A stretch of DNA of 64,000 nucleotides from Thiocapsa sp. (GTDB taxonomy: Bacteria > Pseudomonadota > Gammaproteobacteria > Chromatiales > Chromatiaceae), in contig NZ_CP073760.1 of assembly GCF_018399035.1 (NCBI RefSeq), forward strand, positions 4,220,001 through 4,284,000, written 5' to 3'. Below, piece after piece: positions 6,023-31,952 of this stretch (positions are counted from its first letter, which is position 1; the number at the start of each line of letters is the position of its first letter). The notes below the pieces were generated by a model. It saw only the letters and a list, made by a program, of their open reading frames with translations, was not told the origin of the DNA and did not search any database. A program made the translations under genes and the position numbers.

Positions 6023-6477
6023 ATACTCTGTTCTGACGCAAGTCCGATTTGCCTCCTATCCATCATTTTTTTCTATCCTCATCGTTGTTTCGGCGGGATG
6101 GTCGTTGAGCAGCTGCCAACCCCATCGGACCCACCTTCGATGATGGATGGGGCTTGGCTGCGGGTGGGGCGCGGGCGGACTCCGTGTGGACAACGCGTGA
6201 ATGCCGCAAGCGGGCGTGTGGACAAGCCGGGGACAACCCGCTCCCGGCGGGTTGCCCCCACCTTGACCACACTCATTCACCCGTTGCCCACACTGCGCCG
6301 CACTGAAGCCGCTGCTGGCTGCGAGCGTCTGCGACGCGACTGCTGCTGGTTTTTGATCAATGAATGCCCTGCGCCGTGGTGGTTGAACGCGCTCGTCTTG
6401 TCGGCGGCTCTTGGACGGCCACGCGCGTGCTGTCGGGCCAACCGAGGAGGGTGCCGTGGCGGACATCGCCGAGGTGC

Positions 6478-7471
6478 TCATGCCGCGGCCTCGCGAAGCA
6501 AGCAGAAGCGGCTGCCGTCGAACGCTTGGCGGTGCTTGAGCATGGCATAGATGGCATGCAGCAATTTGCGCATGACCGCGCAGATGGCCTGAATCTTCTT
6601 CAGGCCGCGCGCTTCGATGAGATGCGTGTAGTAGCTGTTGACGTGCGGTTCATGGCGCGCGGCGCTCAGCGCGGGCATGAACAGCGCCTTGCGCAGGTGG
6701 GCGTTGCCGGCCTTACTCAGGCGCGGGGGTTTGTTCACGCTGGTGCCCGAGGTGCTCTGGCGCGGATCCAGTCCGGCCAGGGCGACCCATTGCTTGGCAC
6801 GCATGTCCTCGGGCAGCACCAGCAGCTCACCCATGAGCTGGATGGCGCTGGCGGCGGCGATGCCGGGGATGCCGGTGAGCAGCCGGTAGACCTGCGCAAG
6901 CTCCTCGTCGGCGCTGATGCGCGCATCGGCCCAGTCACGCAGGGCATCAATCCGGGCGGTGTACTGGTGGATGCTCAGGCGCACGTCCTCCAGCACGACG
7001 GCCGGCGTGGTGGTGCTTTGCAACAGGGCGTGGAGTTGGTTCTTCGCCCGCGTGCGATCGACCACCAACGCCTCCAGGCGCCGTGAACAGGCGCGCAGCT
7101 CCAGCGCCTCGGTCGCCGGGCGCCGCCACGGCTCGAACGGCATGCGCCGGGCGAACTGCGCCAGCACGCCGGCATCGACCGCATCGCTCTTGTTGCGCGT
7201 CTGCAAGGCCTCGGCAAAGCGCTTGGCGGCCTTGGGGTTGAGCACCATGAGCGCCAACCCGGCCGCATCGATGGCCAGCGCCAGGTCCAGGTGATAGCTG
7301 CCGGTCGCCTCCAGGCACACCCGCTCCACCCGCGCACCTTGCAAGGCGCTTAATCAGCGCGGCATGACCGCTTGGTGTGTTGGCAAACTCGCGGACCTTG
7401 CCGAGCTTCTCCTCGGTGCTGACGGCCAGCGCCAGGGTCTTGTGGGCCACATCGATTCCGGCTGTATTCAT
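6478..7471 (-). pseudogene. IS110-family transposase, frameshifted
   Basis: The start MNTAGIDVAHKT (ATG at 7471) and the body ending at 6478 lie in different frames. The cause is one additional base in CAAGGCGCTTAATC at about 7347, compared with CAAGGCCTTAATC in copy 2. Downstream of the shift the sequence still encodes CLEATGSYH, the NKSDAVDAG acidic pair and the C-terminal SKAGNAHLRKA motif. The product is presumably inactive, but the element could still be mobilised by the intact copy 2 transposase. An indel in the read data is the alternative explanation. Confidence 0.9.
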
Positions 7472-7539
7472 CGTCTGTCTCTTCAGGATGCAACGCGATA
7501 TTATGATTCCCGGTTCCCCGACCCTGTACCCTCGCCTAC

Positions 7540-7744
7540 CGACCTTGTGTATGCAGGCTCCCGGACATGTCCACGGCCTCGGATACTCTTCGGTATGGGC
7601 GAAGAGGGCGGGGAGCCCATCTACATGCAAGCTCTGAACAGCGGAACACGACATCCAGGCTTCAGGGGCGAACGGCTTCCCGGGCACTCTTCATAAAGTC
7701 CGTTTATCGCTTTCCTTGTCAATCCCTTCAGAACAGAACATACA
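7540..7744 (-). ncRNA. Candidate IS110 bridge RNA region, copy 1
   Basis: Lies between the transposase start and the element end. The four guide-like segments described for copy 2 are conserved: AGGGGCGA at 7664-7671, CTACATG at 7621-7627, GATACTCT at 7582-7589 and TGTATG at 7548-7553 (plus-strand sequence). RNA ends are not defined by the sequence; the interval is a working estimate. Confidence 0.55.
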
Positions 7745-14390: not shown

Positions 14391-14495
14391 AGGTGATTTC
14401 CGGGAAAGCATCGACCAACATGTAGGGGCGACTTTAGTCGCCCGGTAAGCATTGGCAACACGCACGGCCGGGATGATCATTCCCGGAAATCGCCT
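14391..14495 (+). repeat. Family R palindromic repeat, intact 'empty' IS110 target
   Basis: Runs from AGGTGATTTCCGGGAA to TTCCCGGAAATCGCCT without interruption and contains the CCAACATGTAGGGGCGAC target core where IS110 sits in the other copies. Confidence 0.88.
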
Positions 14496-19940: not shown

Positions 19941-20009
19941 GTGAAGGTCCCGAACCCAGACAGGGCAGTTGTCGACATCCTGAAACTAACGCATTACTGT
20001 TTAAGGTGA
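19941..20009 (+). pseudogene. DUF6883-like gene, N-terminal fragment cut by an R repeat
   Basis: GTG 19941 starts KVPNPDRAVVDILKLTHYCL, matching the family's usual start (K-x-P-N-x-x-K/R-A-V-V-D-I-x-K-L-x-x-Y-C-L). The reading ends in the AGGTGA of the family R repeat. The family occurs in toxin/immunity-like settings of unknown function. Confidence 0.5.
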
Positions 20010-20109
20010 TTTCCGGGAATGCATCGACCAACATGTAGGGGCGACTTTAGTCGCCCGGTAACCATTGGAGGCATGTACGGCCGGGATGCTCATTCCCGGA
20101 AATCGCCTA
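20004..20109 (+). repeat. Family R palindromic repeat, intact, slightly diverged
   Basis: AGGTGATTTCCGGGAATGC to ATTCCCGGAAATCGCCT. The target core CCAACATGTAGGGGCGAC is intact and there is no IS insertion. The interior differs from the other copies around 20060-20085. Confidence 0.88.
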
Positions 20110-21214: not shown

Positions 21215-21516
21215 GCTTATGGACGCCTATCTCTGGGCTTGCATGGCGCGGACAGTAGCACCTGTTAAGTGGTCTGCCAACGTAGCTGACAATCCCGAGG
21301 GGTCCCAAGGGGGAAATTCGGAAGGGCAGCGACGTGATCTCGTTTGCCTCGGGAACCGTATGCCGGATCCTTGACCTCGCACTTGGTGCGTGATGCCGGC
21401 GAGTTCCCGGGGGCAGGGCGAGCTCCAGGAACAGTATCTGTCATTCAATGCCACGACGGGTGTCCGCTGCCCGCTCGACTGCGGACCCCGTCCGGCGACG
21501 CACCAGTGTCAGCTCT
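21215..21516. other. Non-coding interval
   Basis: No gene, repeat family or RNA recognised between the antitoxin and the duplicated block that begins at about 21517. Confidence 0.5.
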
Positions 21517-21702
21517 GGGTCGCGACTTATCGCTCGTTGCAGCGCGAACGACTTCCCGCTTTCAGGATTGACCTGTCCGGCAGCGGTCTGTCCTGAGCGG
21601 CGGCTTGCCGACGCTCTCGAGGCATCTGCCTTGCGCGCACGCTGTCATGCGGGTCGGTTTGGGGTATTGTCCTCAAAACAAACGAATTATCCCGCTCTCC
21701 CG

Positions 21703-22130
21703 GATGGCCGAACACGATCCTTCCTACAAGCTCCTGTTCTTGGCTCGCCGCACCCGAGCAGGACAGTCTGCGCCGTGCCTTCGTCGTCTGGCTCAAGCGC
21801 GTGCTGCTGCCGGCGCGAGTGCCGGGCGCCGAGCTACCGAACGTCAACAATCTTCAGGAGATGCGCGCCATGTTGGCCGAACGGGTGAAGACCTGGACCG
21901 AGGAGTGGAAACAACAGGGACTGGAGCAAGGGATTCAGCAAGGTCTCAAGGAAGGATTGTCCCGGGGAGAGGCAAGGCTGCTGCGCCGGCAGTTGATCCG
22001 GCGCTTTGGAGCACTGCCGACCTGGGCCGAGGCACGCCTCGAGCAGGCGGGCGAGGCCGATCTCGAGGTCTGGGCCGATCGCGTCCTGGACGGCACGACC
22101 CTGGAAGAGGTCCTCGAGGAGCCGATCTAA
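21703..22130 (+). pseudogene. Rpn/DUF4351-type PD-(D/E)XK transposase-like gene, internally deleted (copy 1)
   Basis: The family start MAEHDPSYKLLF (ATG 21703) joins, after loss of the whole nuclease core and with a frame change, to the C-terminal part APEQDSLRRAFVVWLKRVLL, then MLAERVKTWTEEWKQQG and the DUF4351-like end DLEVWADRVLDGTTLEEVLEE (stop 22128-22130). The second copy at 31022-31413 has the same junction, so the deletion predates the duplication. Intact relatives promote recombination (RpnA family). Confidence 0.75.
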
Positions 22131-22259
22131 GGGATCGACTGCCGGGGGCAGGGTCTCGCGCCGAATTCCCGAGCGGCGCTCAGCCGTGACTGAGCGCCCA
22201 CGTTTCCCCCAGCGCTCGTTGTGCTCGGCAGTGTCGAGAGCGTCGTCAACCTCCACTCC

Positions 22260-22496
22260 TAAACCGCGTCCAGAGCGAGATGCTCACTTTCGATCAAGCG
22301 AACCTCTTGGCCAAGGACTTGATCGCGATTGGCGCTGTGCCGAGGAACAGCGAGGAGGACGCCCTTCATATCGCCATCGCTGCGGCATCAGGCATCGACT
22401 ACTTGTTTACCTAAACCGCGCCCGGTGCGGTATGCGATGTTTTTGGATGGGATCGGCCCCGGCGGTTTTGACGAACGCTGGAGTCGGCTCGGTTTA
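22260..22496. repeat. Partial type A MITE, PIN-domain fragment and type B MITE (copy 1)
   Basis: Type A left arm at 22260-22293 (TAAACCGCGTCCAGAGCG), then gene-fragment sequence, then a type B unit at 22412-22496 with a mutated right end (GGCTCGGTTTA). Confidence 0.8.
22280..22414 (+). pseudogene. PIN-domain (VapC-like) toxin, C-terminal fragment (copy 1)
   Basis: LLAKDLIAIGAVP followed by EEDALHIAIAAASGIDYLFT is the distal PIN-domain pattern, where D-A-L-H-I-A contributes an active-site Asp. An ATG inside the type A MITE at 22280 is in frame, and the TAA of the type B MITE terminates it, giving a 45-codon chimeric frame. Probably non-functional. Confidence 0.65.
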
Positions 22497-22531: not shown

Positions 22532-22986
22532 ATACTCTGTTCTGACGCAAGTCCGATTTGCCTCCTATCCATCATTTTTTTCTATCCTCATCGTTGTTTC
22601 GGCGGGATGGTCGTTGAGCAGCTGCCAACCCCATCGGACCCACCTTCGATGATGGATGGGGCTTGGCTGCGGGTGGGGCGCGGGCGGACTCCGTGTGGAC
22701 AACACGTGAATGCCGCAAGCGGGCGTGTGGACAAGCCGGGGACAACCCGCTCCCGGCGGGTTGCCCCCACCTTGACCACACTCATTCACCCGTTGCCCAC
22801 ACTGCGCCGCACTGAAGCCGCTGCTGGCTGCGAGCGTCTGCGACGCGACTGCTGCTGGTTTTTGATCAATGAATGCCCTGCGCCGTGGTGGTTGAACGCG
22901 CTCGTCTTGTCGGCGGCTCTTGGACGGCCACGCGCGTGCTGTCGGGCCAACCGAGGAGGGTGCCGTGGCGGACATCGCCGAGGTGC

Positions 22987-23979
22987 TCATGCCGCGGCCT
23001 CGCGAAGCAAGCAGAAGCGGCTGCCGTCGAACGCTTGGCGGTGCTTGAGCATGGCATAGATGGCATGCAGCAATTTGCGCATGACCGCGCAGATGGCCTG
23101 AATCTTCTTCAGGCCGCGCGCTTCGATGAGATGCGTGTAGTAGCTGTTGACGTGCGGTTCATGGCGCGCGGCGCTCAGCGCGGGCATGAACAGCGCCTTG
23201 CGCAGGTGGGCGTTGCCGGCCTTACTCAGGCGCGGGGGTTTGTTCACGCTGGTGCCCGAGGTGCTCTGGCGCGGATCCAGTCCGGCCAGGGCGACCCATT
23301 GCTTGGCACGCATGTCCTCGGGCAGCACCAGCAGCTCACCCATGAGCTGGATGGCGCTGGCGGCGGCGATGCCGGGGATGCCGGTGAGCAGCCGGTAGAC
23401 CTGCGCAAGCTCCTCGTCGGCGCTGATGCGCGCATCGGCCCAGTCACGCAGGGCATCAATCTGGGCGGTGTACTGGTGGATGCTCAGGCGCACGTCATCC
23501 AGCACCACGGCCGGCGTGGTCGTGCTTTGCAGCAGCGCGTGGAGTTGATTCTTCGCCCGCGTGCGATCGACCACCAACGCCTCCAGGCGCCGGGCGCAGG
23601 CGCGCAGCTCCAGTGCCTCGGTCGCCGGGCGCCGCCATGGCTCGAACGGCATGCGCCGGGCAAACTGCGCCAGCACCCCGGCATCGACCGCATCGCTCTT
23701 GTTGCGCGTCTGCAATGCCTCGGCAAAGCGCTTGGCGGCCTTGGGGTTGAGCACCATGAGCGCCAACCCGGCCGCATCGATGGCCAGCGCCAGGTCCAGG
23801 TGATAGCTGCCGGTCGCCTCCAGGCACACCCGCTCCACCCGCGCACCTTGCAAGGCCTTAATCAGCGCGGCATGACCGCTTGGTGTGTTGGCAAACTCGC
23901 GGACCTTGCCGAGCTTCTCCTCGGTGCTGACGGCCAGCGCCAGGGTCTTGTGGGCCACATCGATTCCGGCTGTATTCAT
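22987..23979 (-). CDS. IS110-family transposase (RuvC-like DEDD plus Tnp_20 serine domain)
   Basis: 330 residues. The N-terminal RuvC-like acidic residues are Asp7 (TAGIDVAHK), Glu54 (CLEATGSYH), Asp96 and Asp99 (NKSDAVDAG), the D-E-D-D set of the family. The C-terminal domain carries GIPGIAAASAIQLMGELL, then AGLDPRQSTSGTSVNKPPRLSKAGNAHLRKA, where Ser241 is the likely nucleophile. Length and motif spacing are close to IS621. ATG 23979 is chosen because an upstream in-frame extension would read through the candidate guide RNA. The enzyme would act with a bridge RNA to recombine the circular element into its target. Confidence 0.93.
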   Translation of the reverse strand: MNTAGIDVAHKTLALAVSTEEKLGKVREFANTPSGHAALIKALQGARVERVCLEATGSYHLDLALAIDAAGLALMVLNPKAAKRFAEALQTRNKSDAVDAGVLAQFARRMPFEPWRRPATEALELRACARRLEALVVDRTRAKNQLHALLQSTTTPAVVLDDVRLSIHQYTAQIDALRDWADARISADEELAQVYRLLTGIPGIAAASAIQLMGELLVLPEDMRAKQWVALAGLDPRQSTSGTSVNKPPRLSKAGNAHLRKALFMPALSAARHEPHVNSYYTHLIEARGLKKIQAICAVMRKLLHAIYAMLKHRQAFDGSRFCLLREAAA

Positions 23980-24047
23980 CGTCTGTCTCTTCAGGATGCA
24001 ACGCGATATTATGATTCCCGGTTCCCCGACCCTGTACCCTCGCCTAC

Positions 24048-24252
24048 CGACCTTGTGTATGCAGGCTCCCGGACATGTCCACGGCCTCGGATACTCTTCG
24101 GTATGGGCGAAGAGGGCGGGGAGCCCATCTACATGCAAGCTCTGAACAGCGGAACACGACATCCAGGCTTCAGGGGCGAACGGCTTCCCGGGCACTCTTC
24201 ATAAAGTCCGTTTATCGCTTTCCTTGTCAATCCCTTCAGAACAGAACATACA
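24048..24252 (-). ncRNA. Candidate IS110 bridge RNA region, copy 2
   Basis: Read on the transposase strand, four short segments appear in order. TCGCCCCT (24179-24172) is identical to the left target plus CT core. GCATGTAG (24136-24129) is complementary to the core plus right target CTACATG. AGAGTATC (24097-24090) is identical to the donor end AGAGTAT plus C. CATACA (24061-24056) is complementary to the donor TGTATG, and a nearby CAAG could cover the core. This order and strand logic match the target loop and donor loop of IS621 bridge RNA. A 7-bp CTCTTCG/CGAAGAG hairpin lies beside the donor guide. RNA ends are estimates. Confidence 0.6.
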
Positions 24253-30832: not shown

Positions 30833-31021
30833 TCTGGGTTGTGACTTGTCCCTCGTTGCAGCGCGAACGACTTTCCGCTTTCAGGATTGACCTGTCCGGC
30901 AGCGGTCTGTCCTGAGCGGCGGCTTGCCGACGCTCTCGAGGCATCTGCCTTGCGCGCACGCTGTCATGCGGGTCGGTTTGGGGTATTGTCCTCAAAACAA
31001 ACGAATTATCCCGCTCTCCCG

Positions 31022-31413
31022 GATGGCCGAACACGATCCTTCCTACAAGCTCCTGTTCTTGGCTCGCCGCACCCGAGCAGGACAGTCTGCGCCGTGCCTT
31101 CGTCGTCTGGCTCAAGCGCGTGCTGCTGCCGGCGCGAGTTCCCGGCGCCGAGCTACCGAACGTCAACACTCTTCAGGAGATGCGCGCCATGTTGGCCGAA
31201 CGGGTGAAGAGCTGGACCGAGGAGTGGAAGCAGCAGGGTATCTCCGAGGGCGAAACCAAGCTGCTGCGCCGGCAGTTGGTGCGGCGCTTCGGACCCCTGC
31301 CGGCCTGGGCCGAGGCACGCCTCGAGCAGGCGGGCGAGGCCGATCTCGAGGTCTGGGCCGATCGCGTCCTGGACGGCACGACCCTGGAAGAGGTCCTTGA
31401 GGAGCCGATTTGA
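31022..31413 (+). pseudogene. Rpn/DUF4351-type gene, internally deleted (copy 2)
   Basis: MAEHDPSYKLLF at 31022 is followed by the same deletion/frame-change junction as copy 1. The C-terminal frame reads MLAERVKSWTEEWKQQGISEGETKLLRRQL and ends in EVLEEPI (stop 31411-31413). Confidence 0.75.
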
Positions 31414-31539
31414 GGATCGACTCCGGTGCAGGGTCTCGCGCCGATTTCCCGAGCGGCGCCCAGCCGTGACTGAGCGCCCACGTTTCTCTCAGCACTCGAT
31501 GTGCTCGGCAATGTCGAGCGCGTCGTCAACCTCCACTCC

Positions 31540-31776
31540 TAAACCGCGTCCAGAGCGAGATGCTCACTTTCGATCAAGCGAACCTCTTGGCCAAGGACTT
31601 GATCGCGATTGGCGCTGTGCCGAGGAACCGCGAGGAGGACGCCCTTCATATCGCCATCGCTGCGGCATCAGGCATCGACTACTTGTTTACCTAAACCGCG
31701 CCCTGTGCGGTATGCGATGTTTTTGGATGGGATCGGCCCCGGCGGTTTTGACGAACGCTGGAGTCGGCGCGGTTTA
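31540..31776. repeat. Partial type A MITE, PIN-domain fragment and type B MITE (copy 2)
   Basis: Type A left arm from 31540. The PIN fragment (ATG 31560 to TAA 31692-31694) has one substitution from copy 1, giving PRNREED instead of PRNSEED. The type B unit at 31692-31776 has an intact right end, GGCGCGGTTTA. Confidence 0.8.
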
Positions 31777-31863
31777 AGGTGATTTCCGGGAAAGCATCGA
31801 CCAACATGTAGGGGCGACTTTAGTCGCCCGGTAAGCATTGGCAACACGCACGGCCGGGATGAC
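31777..31863 (+). repeat. Family R repeat, truncated at its right end
   Basis: AGGTGATTTCCGGGAAAGC through the GGGCGAC-TTTA-GTCGCCC hairpin to GCCGGGATGA, where it joins a truncated W repeat. The IS110 target core is intact and empty. Confidence 0.85.
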
Positions 31864-31952
31864 CATCCAGCCCGCGCCAAGGGTATCGGACAGAAACCCG
31901 GCAGCGCGGTGGTTTGGAGGATGGGTTTCGCCGACGCTCTACCCATCCTACG
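31864..31952. repeat. Family W repeat, copy 5 (truncated)
   Basis: Starts inside the unit at CCATCCAGCCCGCGCCAAGG and ends CGCTCTACCCATCCTAC; the outer left arm was lost at the junction with R. Confidence 0.82.

Follow-up and report, generated by a model that had tools for sequence, protein, structure and literature searches.

We have identified an IS110-group insertion sequence of the IS621 type in a 64,000-nt stretch of a Thiocapsa sp. genome (GCF_018399035.1, contig NZ_CP073760.1, positions 4,220,001-4,284,000 of the forward strand; hereafter the window). As read from its sequence, the element very probably encodes a bridge RNA in its left end (LE), chooses its targets through guides in that RNA, and sometimes has the DNA of its left target guide (LTG) misused during excision. 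We further propose, as a likely reading, that bridge-RNA genes serve their own recombinase as decoy targets, in that LTG DNA with its CT core would be used as a left half-site. This would give stereotyped scars, and then nested copies and arrays, in at least two distant IS110 lineages (elements of Chromatiales, and IS621 in E. coli).

The closed 5.7-Mb genome holds 13 full copies of the element, which share an identical interval and differ in their flanks. Both copies in the window lie inside a repeat, here called the R repeat, and the ends and target were derived by comparing these two occupied sites with three empty R repeats. On the element strand, the target is AAAGTCGCCC-CT-ACATGTTGG and the donor junction is TCAGAACAGAGTAT-CT-TGTATGTTCTGTTCTGA; insertion at the CT core is scarless, with the empty site restored in the comparison. 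There are about 40 near-full-length R repeats in the genome, and 6 of the 13 copies occupy one (CTACATGTTGG), while the remainder lie in different sequences (CTACATCGCC, CTACACACTC, CTACACGCCC, CTACATGGCA, CTACAACGAT, CTACCCACGT and CTACCCTCTC). GTCGCCC-CT-AC is common to the insertion sites, although the site of L008, at a contig start, has one C fewer on its left side. The idea that the whole R repeat is recognised was rejected, since roughly half of the 13 copies lie outside R and still keep GTCGCCC-CT-AC. What is constant is the 8-nt LTG plus a minimal 4-nt right target guide (RTG), not the R repeat. The R repeat itself is ~105 bp long with an inner palindrome (GGGCGACT..AGTCGCCC), a target reservoir resembling repetitive extragenic palindromes. 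The transposase frame is broken near codon 38 in 6 of the 13 copies, copy 1 of the window included, with the RNA gene intact; such copies may be mobilised in trans.

The first-pass annotation had placed four short segments upstream of the transposase, on its strand, in the order left target, right target, left donor, right donor, with identity for the left guides and complementarity for the right ones as in IS621. This arrangement was confirmed on the element strand (Table 1), with the logic, order and CT core of IS621. The two left guides stand as proposed: the LTG equals the left target plus CT, and the left donor guide (LDG) equals the left side of the donor junction including the core C, each over 8 of 8 bases. 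The RTG is in its proposed place and pairs over 7 of 7 bases with the R repeat, but that length is R-specific; a match of 7-8 nt is confined to the R repeat, and CTAC alone is constant over all sites. For the right donor guide (RDG), the segment CATACA had been named at the correct position, but it is only part of a longer guide that includes the core and carries a 2-nt bulge as in the IS621 structure. The handshake bases fit both donor positions (A-T7, U-A6) and one target position (G-C7). Another AT..ACAAG, at LE 22 close to the left end, was dropped because relatives do not conserve it. The proposed interpretation is supported, with adjusted guide lengths.

The register follows the IS621 structure paper, in which the LTG pairs with the left target and core, the RTG with the core and right target (4 nt, extendable to 7), and the LDG with donor positions 1-8. 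There the RDG consists of two bases, a 2-nt bulge and five bases ending on the core, and handshake bases follow both the RTG and the RDG. The IS621 left end, read from E. coli, is GCCGT-ATCGGGCCT ... GTAG-AT ... ACCGG-ACAGTATC ... AT-TT-GCAAG-GT, and that of the Thiocapsa element is GCCGT-TCGCCCCT ... CATGTAG-AT ... ACCGA-AGAGTATC ... AT-AC-ACAAG-GT. The two match in each motif: both have GCCGT ahead of the LTG, GTAG-AT at the RTG, ACCG ahead of the LDG and AT-NN-NCAAG-GT at the RDG.

The notion that four short matches arose by chance in a GC-rich stretch of 273 nt is practically negligible. The matches are only 7-9 nt long, and any one of them taken singly turns up in about 1% of dinucleotide shuffles of the LE (0.5-1.2%); the first-pass annotation had also remarked that chance contributes to every motif singly and is improbable jointly. 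At least two motifs occurred together in 0.05% of shuffles, and none of 100,000 gave all four in order, although these rates understate the search freedom and overstate the surprise somewhat, because the motifs were fixed beforehand. The joint order, the independent co-variation in relatives described below and the register shared with IS621 all argue against chance. That the segments recur in copy 1, also offered at first in their favour, is correct but uninformative, because the copies are ~99% identical; the transposase frame of copy 1 is broken.

Table 1. Features of the IS110-group element and its target repeats in the window. LE coordinates are numbered from 24252 along the minus strand, which is the element strand.
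Feature	Position	Strand	Evidence
IS110-group element (copy 2), 1721 bp, both junctions with CT core	22532-24252	-	Interval common to 13 full copies, flanks differ
Element copy 1, with broken transposase frame	6023-7744	-	Copies ~99% identical
DEDD recombinase, 330 aa	22987-23979	-	PF01548 and PF02371; PDB relatives ISCro4 and IS621
Predicted bridge RNA, target-binding loop then donor-binding loop	24018-24195	-	Covariance model R1, 165.5 bits (high by construction); compensatory pairs
LTG TCGCCCCT, 8 nt including CT core	24172-24179 (LE 74-81)	-	8/8 identity to left target; co-varies in relatives
RTG CATGTAG	24129-24135 (LE 118-124)	-	7/7 complementary to CTACATG of R repeat
AT handshake bases after RTG	24127-24128	-	Can pair donor positions 7 and 6; register from IS621
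LDG AGAGTATC	24090-24097 (LE 156-163)	-	8/8 identity to donor left side and core C
RDG AT-[AC bulge]-ACAAG = ATACACAAG	24052-24060 (LE 193-201)	-	7/7 to donor right side and core
G handshake base after RDG	24051	-	Pairing with target position 7 possible
Non-coding right end of 455 nt with a long hairpin, not the bridge-RNA gene	22532-22986	-	Short right ends in relatives; guide set absent
Left subterminal inverted repeat TCTGTTCTGA	24236-24245	-	Direct reading; perfect partner 22536-22545
Right subterminal inverted repeat TCAGAACAGA	22536-22545	-	Direct reading
Unoccupied R repeats (target family)	14391-14495; 20004-20108; 31777-31881	+ (given for 14391-14495)	Empty versus occupied comparison

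Covariance folding across relatives placed a predicted structured RNA in the left end. Relatives were collected from genome contigs, from genomes of the same order and with the left-end covariance model (R1). In their alignment, 14 of 31 pairs show double-sided compensatory changes, and 97.2% of cells are paired compared with 30-45% when the alignment is slid. R1, which was built partly from the window sequence and without IS621, also picks up the experimentally characterised IS621 bridge RNA in its known position, with a weak score (18.7 bits, E 0.012). A search of the whole window against Rfam gave no match. Solo matches to model positions 6-57 in G004 were discarded as contig ends.

The recombinase carries the two parts expected of the IS110 family, a DEDD RuvC-like domain and a C-terminal domain with a catalytic serine, and both Pfam models (PF01548 and PF02371) score above cut-off. 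Residues D7, E54, D96, D99 and S241 align with catalytic D11, E60, D102, D105 and S241 of IS621, and the core-recognising residues G57 and N78 are kept. With IS4321 as the sole IS1111-group reference, the recombinase groups in a tree with IS621, ISCro4 and other left-end-RNA elements, apart from IS4321; its identity is 32% to IS621, 35% to ISCro4 and 23% to IS4321. ISCro4 (Citrobacter; structure 9t56) is related over its full length, a likeness judged from the protein alone.

The right end (RE) speaks to a second alternative, namely an IS1111-type element with its guide RNA in the long right end and only incidental matches on the left, which we regard as highly improbable. IS1111 elements are defined by subterminal inverted repeats of 11-13 bp, lying 7 bp inside the left end and 3 bp inside the right; those of the window element are perfect over 10 bp, with 7 bp and 4 bp outside. 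Together with a 455-nt right end that exceeds the 273-nt left end, these repeats resemble the IS1111 group (IS4321) and depart from the IS110-group tendency towards a longer left end and absent or short repeats, which is not a strict definition, as elements with two long ends have been reported. However, the RNA is not located in the right end, because right ends measure only 56-103 nt in most relatives (227 nt in L013, 403 nt in L063). Nor was the guide set found on the opposite LE strand or on either right-end strand, where no match exceeded 6 nt. The left-end RNA is kept with compensatory changes, the guides follow the IS110 order and not the reversed one of IS1111, and both tree and scores place the recombinase with IS621 and ISCro4. 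The possibility raised at the outset, that a family-wide model would place the RNA in the 455-nt region, has accordingly failed. The right end also contains, from its nt 196 onwards, a hairpin of ~100 nt (~-60 kcal/mol, minus strand); L063, 72% identical, has a corresponding hairpin with compensating arms (GTGAATG/CATTCAC versus GTGCATG/CATGCAC).

Natural variation among relatives ties the LTG to its target. Over 27 distinct pairs of LTG and target, a mean of 5.15 of the 6 non-core bases agree, compared with 3.08 after shuffling, and none of 20,000 shuffles reached the observed value. Guides equal to their own left flank include TCGCCCCT, CGGACCCT, CCCAACCT, CCCATCCT, TCGCTCCT, CCGCTCCT, TCCACCCT, CACATCCT, CCGCACCCT and ACCGGCCCCT, among others. 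The second outcome that could have overturned the first-pass annotation, altered targets with unchanged guides, was likewise not borne out, as the guides of relatives change to match. Two relatives have an RTG altered together with the right target (GAAG with CTTC in L112; GTTAG with CTAAC in L121). Elsewhere in the Chromatiales, IS110 elements (L013 of T. roseopersicina, L016 of Thiocystis violacea, ~30 copies in G195, and L018 of an Olavius symbiont) have the same left-end RNA and donor ends as the window element; most of them have a different LTG, each matching its own flank.

A recurrent scar at the LTG was found in six Chromatiales genomes (G000, G195, G197, G007, G150 and G107). In it, the first 72-84 nt of the element stop precisely at the LTG and CT core and are joined directly to the right target or to another copy. 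The genome of the window (G000) has two such loci, both broken at the LTG core. In L091, GAAGTCGCCCCT is followed by the first 81 nt of the element ending in GTTCGCCCCT, then by a full element and CTACCC; L092 is a lone 5' fragment of 80 nt. Lone 5' fragments joined to AC occur in G195 (L209, CATATCCT-ACGGGC) and twice in G197 (L251, TACATCCT-ACGGAT; L249, CCCAACCT-ACGATG). The pattern left end, LTG, CT, AC was then predicted and searched in 204 genomes of the order; the search returned the G195 case, one from G197 and two new ones, in G007 (L288, CCCATCCT-ACGAAT) and G150 (L289, CGGACCCT-ACGGGG). Left end, LTG and CT occurred together at 68 places in these genomes, followed by native GARG at 55 and by native variants or contig ends at 5. 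Non-native joins were to AC, the right target, at four places and to TGTATG, the element's own left end, at another four, three of which belong to a G107 array of 5' units (L285); no other following sequence was found at the 68 places.

Scars of the same kind were found for IS621 at six E. coli loci (flgJ-flgK, msrQ-zinT, rhlE-ybiA, ybiT-ybiU, prpE-codB and gldA-yijF; L295-L305 and L307-L310). Among 5,426 E. coli genomes, 39 records carry the junction ATCGGGCCT-AC, which contains the IS621 LTG and not the usual target ATCAGGCCT. It lies at flgJ-flgK in four O26-type records (L295, L300-L302) and at msrQ-zinT in one strain (L296); the remaining records probably share descent. The junction of LTG-CT to the element's own left end occurs in 10 genomes at the other four loci. 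Assembly error is unlikely, because nearly all are annotated as complete chromosomes, and the event is rare, since IS621 left ends occupy ~11,700 places.

Starting from the observed ends, core, guide positions, RNA fold, co-variation and target rule of the 13 insertions, we infer from sequence the promoter, transcription, binding, catalysis and scar mechanism of the following model. Excision would give a circle whose RE-LE junction (left donor-CT-right donor) forms a predicted promoter, TTGCGT-17-TATGTT, readable across that junction. Transcription from it would yield a left-end bridge RNA of ~180-230 nt, whose first loop would pair with the target, the LTG with the left bottom strand and the RTG with the right top strand, minimally over CTAC. 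The second loop would pair with the donor through the LDG and RDG (AT..ACAAG), and the DEDD/Ser recombinase would exchange strands at CT, with GTCGCCCCTAC as the expected insertion site. Normal excision would recombine left target-CT-right donor with left donor-CT-right target, so that each RNA loop has half its site. The LTG-encoding DNA is a perfect left half-target including the core and could be used in place of the true left junction. Its recombination with left donor-CT-right target would leave the left target, the first 72-84 bp, CT and the right target. Since such a scar fully matches the guide and ends in AC, a circle could insert there, giving the nested class, and repeated rounds would add 5' units to form arrays such as that in G107. 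The LDG (24090-24097 and aligned relatives) is usually followed by C or A and not T, leaving its DNA without the T of the CT core; unlike LTG DNA, it would not be a complete decoy half-site.

The scars themselves might instead be ordinary microhomology deletions that joined a left-end CT to the CT of the right junction, without bridge-RNA guidance. We consider this unlikely, even though the joined sites have only CT in common, left-end fragments with different breakpoints exist among the relatives, and one of them (L237) also joins at CT to ACGG. In contrast, unrelated genomes whose LTG sequences differ share a breakpoint at the LTG core, the same is seen at several IS621 loci, and the non-native joins at that position all lead to AC or to TGTATG, none being arbitrary. 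For the array class, a second copy may have inserted into a resident LTG, followed by homologous recombination between copies, an explanation that we find doubtful. It would produce the same final structure, LE(1-81), full element and right target, as at L091, L297-L299 and L303-L305. However, it requires an extra recombination event and insertion without the right-target match, as GA or TG and not AC follows the core, and the solo scars favour mis-excision with later re-insertion.

Several observations weigh against guide-directed targeting and decoy use as proposed here. Statistical support for RTG pairing with the right target outside CTAC is weak (p 0.003 at positions 10-13 and 0.04 at 12-13). 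LDG variants match their own donor ends, but this co-variation is partly circular because the donor ends were located with the LDG. The R1 score of the window is high because the model was built partly from that sequence. The LTG mismatches its flank in some relatives (L014, 3/6; L171, 2/6), and the scar at L092 is eroded by one base. In an ST131 fragment next to znuB, the LTG equals the fragment's own left target, which gene conversion could explain.

The incomplete matches include CCCAAC versus CCAACA and CCCGCC versus CCCATC (L014, L165), which may be off-target insertions or a recent guide change. The znuB-adjacent fragment (L306, 601-679, strain 5392) is an IS621 left end at 92% identity with the same end position, whose LTG region is TTATCCGACCT and which lacks the conserved G before the guide; other records also show a 1-79 match. 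This could be an IS621 variant that was reprogrammed, or the outcome of later gene conversion.

The guide logic, RNA position and co-variation of IS110 elements were described in 2024 (PMC11208160, PMC11208158), and palindromic repeats are already known as natural targets of IS621. The Thiocapsa element belongs to this known IS621-type kind. It shares with IS621 the donor core GTAT-CT-TGTAT, the four guides in the same order and register, the RDG bulge, the AT handshake of the target-binding loop, the catalytic residues and a genomic palindromic repeat as target. It differs in its target (GTCGCCC-CT-AC), an LTG of 8 rather than 9 nt and the 7-nt RTG pairing in the R repeat, and it is unusual in its long right end and 10-bp subterminal repeats. 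No description of guide scars was found in the open-access literature searched, outside which most subscription papers and preprints lie, and the term self-target is absent from PMC11208160.

Raw sequence alone was thus enough to read a bridge RNA, natural variation could then confirm it, and the relatives provide a set of natural guide/target pairs from outside the enterobacteria. The guide gene of an RNA-guided recombinase is itself a half-target that no mark resembling a protospacer adjacent motif protects, except the bases after the core. The scars may serve as a sequence-only test for the end of an IS110 left guide, and constructs that combine a bridge-RNA gene with the matching recombinase may rearrange at the guide. 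If our reading is true, the scars are a natural record of the LTG directing recombination in vivo, and decoy targeting limits how elements and derived tools keep their own guide gene intact.

The window also contains a direct repeat of ~0.9 kb (21514-22444 and 30833-31724; 96-98% identical where matched), with a coding stretch that we take to be an Rpn/YhgA-like C-terminal part. Each repeat unit is followed by an 89-bp CTAAACCGCGCCC repeat and then by an R repeat.
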